Part shown: one piece after another, positions 43,786 to 46,686 of the stretch | How the letters are laid out: every line of letters begins with the position of its first letter | Numbering within the stretch: the stretch's first letter is position 1 | Source of the DNA: Alphaproteobacteria bacterium | Lineage (GTDB): Bacteria; Pseudomonadota; Alphaproteobacteria; Micropepsales; Micropepsaceae | Reading direction: 5' to 3' | Assembly: GCA_947474645.1 (NCBI GenBank) | Contig: CANJJD010000014.1 | Location: forward strand, 1 to 64,000 | DNA: 64,000 nucleotides | Position numbers and translations under genes: made by a program | The notes under the pieces: generated by a model | Databases searched by the model: none | Seen by the model: the letters and a program-made list of their open reading frames with translations, nothing else | Told to the model about the DNA's origin: nothing

Positions 43786-45471
43786 TCATTTTCCTCTGAT
43801 GGCCAGGATCAACCCGCGCAGGGAATTGCCGAAATAAACCTCGCCTTTCAGGTCATCCGGCGTCAGCACCGCTTCGCGCGCCTGTCCCTGTGCGATCAGT
43901 TCGACGCGCAGCCGCCCATCCAGCACGCCCGCCTCCAGCGGCGGGGTGAGCAGAACGCCATCGCACCTGATAAAGATGTTGCTGCGCGCGCCTTCGGTGA
44001 GTTCGCCGCGCTGGTTGCAGAAGATAACTTCGTCTGTGCCCAGGCGTTTGACTTCGCTCTCATACAGGTCGCGCCAGCTTGTCTTGTGCCGCAGCAAGAG
44101 GTCGCTGCTATGGGTGCGTTCCGGCGAAACGGCGTACGTCCAATGGGAAGAGTTGGGCGGCAGGTCATAGGCGCCGGCCTGGTGGACGCCTGCTTCATTC
44201 AAAGTCAGGCGGACACGCAGCGGCCCTGCCCGTCCCGCCACCGCCTGCTCCAGCGCGGCTATGGCGGCACGCGTGTCGAAAGCCAATCCGAAAACCCGTG
44301 CCGAATGTTCCATTCGCGCCAGATGGCTTTCCAGCCGAACAAAGCCGTTTTCCCAGCGCAAGGTTTCAATCAGCTCCAGCGGCTGACGGCCCGCCTCGAA
44401 AAAGCGCGCCTTGAGCAGGCATTCGGCATACTCGCTTGCGCATTCCGAGTCCTGCACCACACCGCCGCCGATGCCCAACTCGCCCTGCCCGTCCGCGATG
44501 GTCAATGTGCGGATGGCGACATTAAAGCGCGCGCTGCCATCCGGTGAAAAATGCCCGATGGCGCCGCAATAGGCGCCGCGCCGCGAACACTCCAGTTGAC
44601 GCAAAATCTCCATGGCGCGGATCTTGGGCGCCCCGGTCACCGAGCCGCAGGGAAACAGCGCCCGCAGGATGTCGGCAATATCAGCGTCATCACGTTTCTT
44701 CGCCGTGACCGTGGAAACCATGGCATGCAAGGTGGGATAGCTTTCGACCTGAAACAGGTTTGAGACATCGACGCTGCCGTTCTCGGCAACCCGGCTGAGA
44801 TCGTTGCGGATCAAATCCACGATCATCAGATTTTCGGCGCGGTTCTTGGGTGACGCCGCCAGCGCAGCACGCTCAGCGTCGTCATTTCCGCCGCGCGCCG
44901 CGGTGCCTTTCATCGGCCGCACCGTCAGGGTGCCATCCGCCGCCAGATCGAAGAACAATTCCGGCGACAGGCTTACTATCTGGCGCTGTCCATCATCGAT
45001 GAAGCCGCAATGGCCTGCGCCGCTGGCAGCGCGCAAGCGCTCATACAGCGCCAGCGCCTCGCCGGCGAAGGCAAAGCGGGCACGGAAGCTGAGATTGGCC
45101 TGATAGATGTCACCGTCCGCGATGTACTCCTTCACGCGCGCGAAGCGGGCGGCATAGCTGGCTTCATCCCATTCAGGACGCAGCGGCCCGGCATAGGCGC
45201 GGCCCGGCACCGTTGACGCTTCTGCTTCAGATCCGGCAAACACTCCCAGCCGCAACAGCGGGCCTTGATCGGATAGGGAGGCCCCGCCCAGCCGTGGTTC
45301 CAGCGCATGGCCCAGCTCATACCCCAGCCAGCCGGCGACATGGCGGCCCTGCGCCAGCGCTGCCGCCACGGCCGCCAGGGCAGACGGCACCTGATCGGCG
45401 GAATCGGCGGCTATGACCGCCAGGGGCTCGCGGAAAACCCGCCGGGGGCCGTCGTCCAGGATGACCAGCAT
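43786..45471 (-). CDS. pabB: Aminodeoxychorismate synthase component I fused to 4-amino-4-deoxychorismate lyase
   Basis: A 561-residue fusion for p-aminobenzoate synthesis. Residues about 1-355 are the chorismate-binding PabB domain, with GDIYQANLSFRARFAF, VRPMKGTAARGG, IVDLIRNDLSRVAENG and GSVTGAPKIRAMEIL. Residues about 360-561 are a PLP class IV aminotransferase-fold PabC domain with LETLRWENG-type start (LIETLRWENGFVRLESHLAR) and DEVIFCNQRGELTEGARSNIF. Such fusions are known in proteobacteria. The glutaminase PabA is not encoded here. It supplies the folate pathway that also needs folC. Confidence 0.93.
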   Translation of the reverse strand: MLVILDDGPRRVFREPLAVIAADSADQVPSALAAVAAALAQGRHVAGWLGYELGHALEPRLGGASLSDQGPLLRLGVFAGSEAEASTVPGRAYAGPLRPEWDEASYAARFARVKEYIADGDIYQANLSFRARFAFAGEALALYERLRAASGAGHCGFIDDGQRQIVSLSPELFFDLAADGTLTVRPMKGTAARGGNDDAERAALAASPKNRAENLMIVDLIRNDLSRVAENGSVDVSNLFQVESYPTLHAMVSTVTAKKRDDADIADILRALFPCGSVTGAPKIRAMEILRQLECSRRGAYCGAIGHFSPDGSARFNVAIRTLTIADGQGELGIGGGVVQDSECASEYAECLLKARFFEAGRQPLELIETLRWENGFVRLESHLARMEHSARVFGLAFDTRAAIAALEQAVAGRAGPLRVRLTLNEAGVHQAGAYDLPPNSSHWTYAVSPERTHSSDLLLRHKTSWRDLYESEVKRLGTDEVIFCNQRGELTEGARSNIFIRCDGVLLTPPLEAGVLDGRLRVELIAQGQAREAVLTPDDLKGEVYFGNSLRGLILAIRGK

Positions 45472-45543: not shown

Positions 45544-45569
45544 CTTGAACGACCAAGGACGCACCCCAT
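45544..45569 (+). promoter_or_regulatory. Candidate sigma-32 (RpoH) heat-shock promoter
   Basis: CTTGAA (45544-45549) and CCCCAT (45564-45569), 14 bases apart and followed by CTTTATT, closely match the RpoH promoter consensus. It drives toward the hsp20 remnant and the DUF1150 gene. Confidence 0.6.
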
Positions 45570-45570
45570 C

Positions 45571-45714
45571 TTTATTCTACCGGCTCTGCCGGGTGAGAGC
45601 ATCGAAGTCAGCGCAGGCGCGTTGGAAAATGGATTGCAGAAGATCGATTTGGCCAGAAAACCGGTCCAACCGAGCGTGAGGGTCGTAAATAGCAATATGT
45701 GGAGTACACCATGA
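45571..45714 (+). pseudogene. Remnant of a small heat-shock protein (Hsp20) gene
   Basis: The frame ending at TGA 45714 encodes an Hsp20-like C-terminus: IEVSAGALENGLQKIDLAR with a short tail after it. In Hsp20 proteins the motif xxGAxLENGLLxIDL lies in the last strands of the alpha-crystallin domain. Upstream of about 45580 the frame has no Hsp20 character and no start codon, so about two thirds of the gene are missing. The TGA overlaps the ATG of the DUF1150 gene, the arrangement expected if it once was the 3' end of an hsp20-DUF1150 operon. A heat-shock promoter still lies directly before it. Confidence 0.6.
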
Positions 45715-45965
45715 CGGACAGATTTGAAGGCGACGAGATCGAGGACCGGAATTTCCTGGCCGGCCGCATCACCTATATCAAGCCCACGGGCAGCGACGAA
45801 GCGCACCGCCTTGGCCTGATCCCCGCCAATATCGATCTTCCCGCCGGCATGAAGCTGTATGTCCTGCATGCCGAGGATGGCAGCGTGCTGGGCTTCACCG
45901 ACGGCTATGCATCCGCCTATGGCGCGGCGCTGCAGAATGAGTTGACCCCGGTCAGCGTCCACTAG
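45711..45965 (+). CDS. DUF1150 family protein
   Basis: An 84-residue alphaproteobacterial protein of unknown function. It shows the family pattern AGRITYIKPT, LYVLHAEDGSVLGFTDGYA and a conserved C-terminal AALQNELTPVSVH. DUF1150 genes commonly follow hsp20 genes, and here an hsp20 remnant and an RpoH-like promoter are directly upstream, so heat induction is likely. ATG 45711 is chosen because GGAG precedes it at the right distance; an in-frame GTG at 45699 is less likely. A strong terminator follows. Confidence 0.88.
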   Translation: MTDRFEGDEIEDRNFLAGRITYIKPTGSDEAHRLGLIPANIDLPAGMKLYVLHAEDGSVLGFTDGYASAYGAALQNELTPVSVH

Positions 45966-45986
45966 CCGGACCCACCGAAAACAGAA

Positions 45987-46017
45987 AGCCGCGGGATTTC
46001 AGTCCCGCGGCTTTTTT
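45987..46017 (+). terminator. Rho-independent terminator of the DUF1150 gene
   Basis: Stem AGCCGCGGGA/TCCCGCGGCT with a six-base loop, followed by six T, 21 bases after the stop codon. Confidence 0.92.
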
Positions 46018-46032
46018 GTTTAGAGTGGCGTC

Positions 46033-46686
46033 ATGCGCCAGATACTCACACTCGCCGCCCTCGCCTTCCTTGCCACGCCTGCCTTTGCACAAGAGGCCCA
46101 ACCGGCCGTCCCGCCGGCGGATGCCGCACCCGTGCCGCTGGCGGTAACACAAGTGCCGTCCAATCCGCCGATGACCGGCCCGCGGCTGCTGATCTCCACC
46201 TCGATGGGCGACATCACCCTGCAGCTCGACGCGGTGCGCGCCCCCAAGAGCGTCGCCAATGTCCTGCGCTATGTGAAGAAGAAGCATTATGACGGCACGG
46301 TGTGGTACCGGGTCGCCAAGGGCTTTGTGATCCAGATGGGAAGCTGGGACGCAGCCGGCAAAGGGCGCGGCGTGGATCCCGCGCCGGTGCCGCTGGAAGC
46401 CAATAACGGGCTCTCCAATTTGCGCGGCACCGTGGCCCTGGGCCGCGAGGAGGCGCCCGACACCGCCAAGGCGGAGTTTTATATCAACCTGGTGGACAAC
46501 ACCCGGCTGGACCACAAGGCCGACGATCCCGGCAACAGCACCGGCTATGCCGTGTTTGGTCAGGTGACGTCGGGCATGGAAGTGGTGGACGCCATCGGCC
46601 AGGTGCCGACGGGCGACAATGGCCCCATGCCGGGACAGGCGCCGATTACGCCCATTGTCGTGACGAAAGTCAGCTTGCTGAAGTGA
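46033..46686 (+). CDS. Exported cyclophilin-type peptidyl-prolyl isomerase
   Basis: A 217-residue periplasmic cyclophilin with a signal peptide (residues 1-19, cleavage near AFAQ), a short Pro-rich linker and the catalytic fold. Visible are ISTSMGDITLQL at the start of the barrel, YDGTVWYRVAKGFVIQMG (the FHRV-like catalytic segment, here YRV) and AEFYINLVDN (for FFI-type). It speeds proline isomerisation during folding of exported proteins. The replacement of Phe-His by Trp-Tyr before Arg is seen in some bacterial members. Confidence 0.88.
   Translation: MRQILTLAALAFLATPAFAQEAQPAVPPADAAPVPLAVTQVPSNPPMTGPRLLISTSMGDITLQLDAVRAPKSVANVLRYVKKKHYDGTVWYRVAKGFVIQMGSWDAAGKGRGVDPAPVPLEANNGLSNLRGTVALGREEAPDTAKAEFYINLVDNTRLDHKADDPGNSTGYAVFGQVTSGMEVVDAIGQVPTGDNGPMPGQAPITPIVVTKVSLLK

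Follow-up and report, generated by a model that had tools for sequence, protein, structure and literature searches.

Why should a heat-shock promoter stand directly ahead of a fragment of a small heat-shock gene and an intact gene of the DUF1150 family? The question is raised by a 64,000-nt stretch of an alphaproteobacterial genome (the window; genome G000), which an initial annotation had read as a deletion of hsp20 that placed DUF1150 under heat-shock control. LarA, which in Caulobacter is induced by sigma32 and activates Lon allosterically (PMC10665427), belongs to the DUF1150 family, and we refer to the gene as larA. We interpret the locus as a heat-shock operon, hsp20-larA, that was reduced to a solo larA unit, predicted to encode a Lon activator, after recurrent loss of the co-transcribed holdase. 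We give this reading a probability of about 0.82.

Anatomy of the larA unit

The promoter, of the sigma32 type (CTTGAA-N14-CCCCAT), lies at 45544..45569 on the plus strand, with CTTGAA at 45544-45549, a 14-nt spacer, and CCCCAT at 45564-45569. It is exactly the site that had been proposed as RpoH-like, and by a consensus score devised for this analysis it equals the best sites of intact relatives. When the 270-nt region was dinucleotide-shuffled 300 times, no shuffle beat or equalled it, and CTTGAA-N13-15-CCCCAT occurs once in the 2.64-Mb genome. Used as a marker for a regulon, both the exact and a slightly looser pattern of the sigma32 consensus matched only 45544-45569 genome-wide. The top sites ahead of dnaK, lon, and the second hsp20 have scores of 10.5-11.5; random 400-nt stretches of the window often equal these scores, which therefore prove nothing. 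Judging from the position of the -10 element, the remaining larA transcript would begin with a leader of about 135 nt (45576..45710, plus strand), whose fold is ordinary (z 0.47).

The larA gene itself (45711..45965, plus strand) is intact and encodes 84 amino acids ending in PVSVH. It matches Pfam PF06620 (E 1.9e-13) with 50.8 bits, above the cut-off of 25, and reaches 41.4 bits with the NCBIfam equivalog BQ00720_DUF1150, under its cut-off of 80; the equivalog is the narrower model, so membership in the wider DUF1150 family rests on Pfam. A Shine-Dalgarno-like GTGGAG at 45699..45704 (plus strand) is retained, as seen in the sequence and in alignment with relatives. The unit is ended by a terminator-like hairpin followed by a T run at 45985..46019 (plus strand); the hairpin scan listed the minus strand only (46014-45985), and the plus-strand T run was read from the sequence.

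On the minus strand upstream, a divergent gene at 43786..45471, which we take to be a pabB-like aminodeoxychorismate synthase, adjoins larA in many relatives. Downstream, on the plus strand, lies a gene at 46033..46686, presumably a cyclophilin-type peptidyl-prolyl isomerase. Since both of these synteny anchors also adjoin larA in nearer relatives, the locus is orthologous. In L094, L095, and L096, no pabB-like neighbour was found within 5 kb on the upstream side of larA.

Between promoter and larA lies the hsp20 remnant (45601..45714, plus strand), which comprises the last 37 codons and the TGA (45712-45714). This stop codon overlaps the larA ATG (45711-45713), as the initial annotation had noted. 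The stretch IEVSAGALENGLQKIDLARKPVQPSVRVVNSNMWSTP, inside a longer open frame, is the hsp20 tail; it begins 31 nt 3' of the promoter and ends at the TGA. When the larA-preceding Hsp20s of relatives were made into an HMM, the remnant was its best match (E 3e-7) among 1047 window ORFs, the runner-up having E 0.39, and BLASTP aligned it at 64% over 39 aa with the linked Hsp20 of G001 and at 57% over 21 aa with an Hsp20 paralogue of the same genome. Pfam gave no match to the frame, and NCBIfam gave only IbpB at E 0.14. A complete alpha-crystallin domain is absent from the remnant, as judged from the missing Pfam match and the missing start and core. The paralogue, retained separately on contig C17, is the further hsp20 copy that the initial annotation had proposed to look for, and the remnant is nearer to the larA-linked Hsp20s than to it. 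The HMM, BLASTP, alignment, and synteny together indicate that the remnant derives from the larA-linked hsp20. A sigma54-like GG-N10-GC, spotted by eye in the tail, was rejected as it is disrupted in L078; CGTTGGAAAATGG, considered as a repeated motif, proved single-copy in the genome.

In intact relatives the pair is longer by about 330 nt, which code for the remainder of Hsp20. In alignment with three of them (G001, L077, and L078), the approximate deletion junction falls at 45583..45600 (plus strand), and the missing part comprises the ribosome-binding site, the start, and about 100 codons of hsp20, which bears out the earlier claim that start and core are gone. The distance from the -35 element to the larA ATG is 167 nt here and 501 nt in G001. 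Directly 5' of larA, G000 thus has no complete hsp20; what remains, 37 of some 139 codons, is roughly the final quarter of the gene, somewhat less than the last third first estimated. The tail has also diverged: its dN is 0.18-0.19 between G000 and three intact neighbours, against 0.04-0.09 among those neighbours. As dS is also elevated, the corresponding dN/dS of 0.44-0.48 falls within the 0.21-0.52 of intact pairs, and it is the raw divergence alone that speaks for pseudogene decay.

This divergence also bears on whether an intact hsp20 was simply dropped from the locus during assembly. The genome is in 54 contigs, and two of its other features look like assembly gaps: dnaK is split over contigs, and a Cpn10/GroES search at E 0.001 found no match in an assembly with a completeness rating of 99.6%. 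Still, the junction is internal to a contig of 64.6 kb and the sequence read there has no N, the amino-acid-changing divergence of the tail is two to five times that of intact tails, and other genomes carry their own, differing lesions. We consider such an artefact very improbable.

Recurrent damage to hsp20 across the genus

Loci from the genus were collected via larA, and those that keep hsp20 without larA may therefore be under-sampled. The 48 assessable loci come from 34 of the 37 genus genomes, which have larA, together with 13 usable named loci and G061. A further 13 named loci were removed as duplicates of unnamed ones, L090 was left out of the 48 for having only 22 nt upstream, and L103 was left out as a Bacteroidales record with 35% identity. 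The contig of L103 encodes a DUF1150-like protein and may be mis-binned or transferred. Two different larA loci, L079 and L091, occur under one metagenome bin (JAICHV01) with differing contig coverage, reflecting either a mixed bin or a duplication. Lake names appear in the record titles of some clade members.

The loss of hsp20 is not a single oddity. With "intact" defined by sequence (frame open, N-terminal and PPYN/PPCN motifs present), hsp20 is open in 39 of the 48 loci and damaged in nine, six of them beyond doubt. Among these six, the 5' three quarters are deleted in G000, hsp20 is almost wholly lost with the promoter retained in G006 and in G008, a deletion extends into larA in G018, 36-nt and 4-nt deletions shift the frame in L081, and a scrambled remnant is left in L095. 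The frame is still open in the other three, where a stop codon cuts off the C-terminal extension (G015), deletions and a compensating shift replace the core (G036), or about 48 codons have been lost in frame relative to L085 (L083). The larA frame is open in eight of the nine damaged loci and broken in G018. There (L062, about 1284-1660), the deletion joins hsp20 to later larA; the joined frame meets a stop close to the junction and the start codon of hsp20 is altered, and both genes appear to be dead as a result.

On a tree built from three neighbouring proteins (33 rows; modest support, with 13 of 30 inner branches open), the nine damages require 8 changes; among the 1000 bootstrap trees, the first 300 give 7-8. 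The six unambiguous losses require 6 changes on the tree and 5-6 on all 1000 bootstrap trees; L090 was counted as intact in the bootstrap counts. A single origin of the damage was rejected (p-AU 1e-8). The tree favours separate whole-gene deletions in G006 and G008, as it places the intact L099 with G006, but a sister grouping of G006 and G008 is not rejected by the AU test (p 0.32), and two separate events were set aside. A link to small genome size was likewise set aside: six damaged genomes are smaller than 28 intact ones (one-sided p 0.0009), with p 0.052 within the clade and relatedness uncorrected.

No locus with linked hsp20 retained and larA lost was seen among these larA-collected loci, so the asymmetry of lost hsp20 and kept larA is only suggestive. 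The three genus genomes that lack larA also lack a linked-type hsp20, at a completeness of only 67-86%.

Of the 48 loci scanned for a promoter, 44 have a best site that opens with CTTGAA or CTTGAT and carries a CAT-like -10 rich in C/A; the exceptions are G018 (ATTGAA), L095, L090, where upstream sequence is missing, and G012, whose contig begins too late for a promoter to show. With a score and lengths of our own choosing (330 nt for G000, G006, and G008, otherwise 640 nt), the site was better than shuffles in seven damaged loci, namely G000, G006, G008, G015, G018, G036, and L083 (p 0.000-0.010), and no better in L081 (p 0.21) and L095 (p 0.39). The same promoter type precedes hsp20-DUF1150 in relatives, which speaks against a new heat-shock control of DUF1150: the deletion shortened an already existing heat-shock unit.

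The surviving tail could also have been kept for an element that larA needs, be it an internal promoter, an RNA element, or translational coupling. A candidate is AALENGL, codons 110-116 of hsp20 in relatives and 45616-45636 in the window. No other stretch of hsp20 in the clade is as conserved at synonymous sites, although the permutation p of 0.027 is weak and takes no account of relatedness, and the G000 and L095 remnants retain much of this stretch. In G006 and G008, however, the stretch is gone while promoter and larA remain. The fold is ordinary, and the window stretch had no Rfam match at the gathering score, with only four sub-threshold matches. An RNA thermometer or other Rfam element was rejected as well, since none reached the gathering score in the loci of four intact relatives either. 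We regard retention of the tail for larA's sake as very unlikely.

Selection on larA and predicted activation of Lon

The retained gene is under purifying selection. Its dN/dS is 0.07-0.09 between G000 and three intact neighbours and 0.08-0.12 among these neighbours. Across the genus, it is 0.04-0.21 in 13 pairs with a damaged member, compared with 0.08-0.23 in five intact pairs; two G018 pairs, with 2 alignable codons, were dropped as uninformative. H is the final residue in 47 of the 48 larA frames listed for the genus, all but the broken G018.

These values weigh on the idea that larA is a mere passenger beside a decaying hsp20, itself on the way out. The single G018 deletion that breaks both genes would fit this idea, as would the Caulobacter larA deletion, for which PMC10665427 reports no obvious growth phenotype under the conditions tested. 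Set against these are the open larA frames in eight of nine damaged loci, the dN/dS of pairs with a damaged member, and the retained degron. We find a passenger role unlikely.

What LarA may do is suggested by the Caulobacter crescentus operon shsp2-larA (CCNA_03706-CCNA_03707), as presented in PMC10665427. There, larA is the second gene, under direct sigma32 regulation, and LarA activates Lon allosterically through its last five residues, of which V86, V88, and H89 are critical. LarA and its small heat-shock protein were suggested to be functionally related on the basis of co-regulation, and PMC10662116 describes faster degradation of sigmaT by Lon in the presence of LarA. The window's larA unit resembles this operon in having a V-x-V-H DUF1150 protein 3' of a sigma32-type Hsp20 promoter, the PVSVH terminus fitting the critical valines and histidine and the promoter being assigned by sequence. 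It differs in that only the last 37 codons of hsp20 are left, and larA is the sole complete gene of the unit. Both organisms are alphaproteobacteria with Lon and RpoH; G000 retains lon, rpoH, and dnaK, the last in two contig pieces. By this analogy, we infer that sigma32 control and Lon activation by LarA hold in the window organism too.

Two statements of the initial annotation are thereby refined. DUF1150 does now stand directly 3' of the heat-shock-type promoter, but it was not newly placed under heat-shock control, as the Caulobacter gene is already second in a sigma32 operon (PMC10665427). Likewise, the chaperone gene is indeed lost, but its neighbour, as a member of the LarA family with a published Lon activator (same source), is not a mere partner.

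We propose the following course of events. A deletion of about 330 nt would have taken the ribosome-binding site, start, and core of hsp20. The sigma32-type promoter would have escaped it, as would the final 37 hsp20 codons and larA with its ribosome-binding site and terminator. Under proteotoxic stress, RpoH would then transcribe a short mRNA encoding LarA alone. LarA would bind Lon by its C-terminal V-x-V-H degron, activate it allosterically, and be degraded by it in turn. The shorter distance to the promoter may raise LarA output, and the missing upstream translation may lower it; translation of larA may be impaired without the upstream frame. Most likely, the linked Hsp20 became dispensable, perhaps covered by the other Hsp20 and DnaK, and we infer that Lon activation stayed useful.

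Repeated loss of Hsp20 with larA under purifying selection indicates that LarA is useful without that partner, and genomes with larA but without the linked hsp20 offer natural test cases for partner-free LarA. A more speculative possibility, about which we are rather doubtful, is that the clade repeatedly moved from holding unfolded proteins with the LarA-linked Hsp20 to degrading them with LarA-activated Lon. On this view, the operon could do without its holdase half, which was lost time after time, selection kept the Lon-activating half, and LarA acts without its Hsp20 partner. HspQ, as treated in the discussion of PMC10665427, from which alone we draw the likeness, is similarly a stand-alone heat-shock-induced Lon regulator that uses a C-terminal sequence; its protein family differs from LarA. 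A full-text search on DUF1150, LarA/Lon, sHSP2, and small heat-shock gene loss found no description of hsp20 loss with larA retention in the parts of the literature that it reached.

The pair across Alphaproteobacteria

In a sample of the class, DUF1150 was present in 61 of 114 genomes. Outside the genus, hsp20 lies upstream on the same strand in 52 of 59 larA loci, so the hsp20-larA pair is most likely ancestral, with uncoupling also elsewhere. In the remaining seven, hsp20 is absent upstream of larA within the 1.5 kb fetched; G085, G134, and G138 have no hsp20 match at all, and the other four genomes have hsp20 elsewhere. These orphans share with the window a larA without hsp20 upstream. They differ from it in that remnants were sought there by HMM search alone, and a good sigma32-like site occurs only in G143 (p 0.003) and perhaps in G085 (p 0.013).
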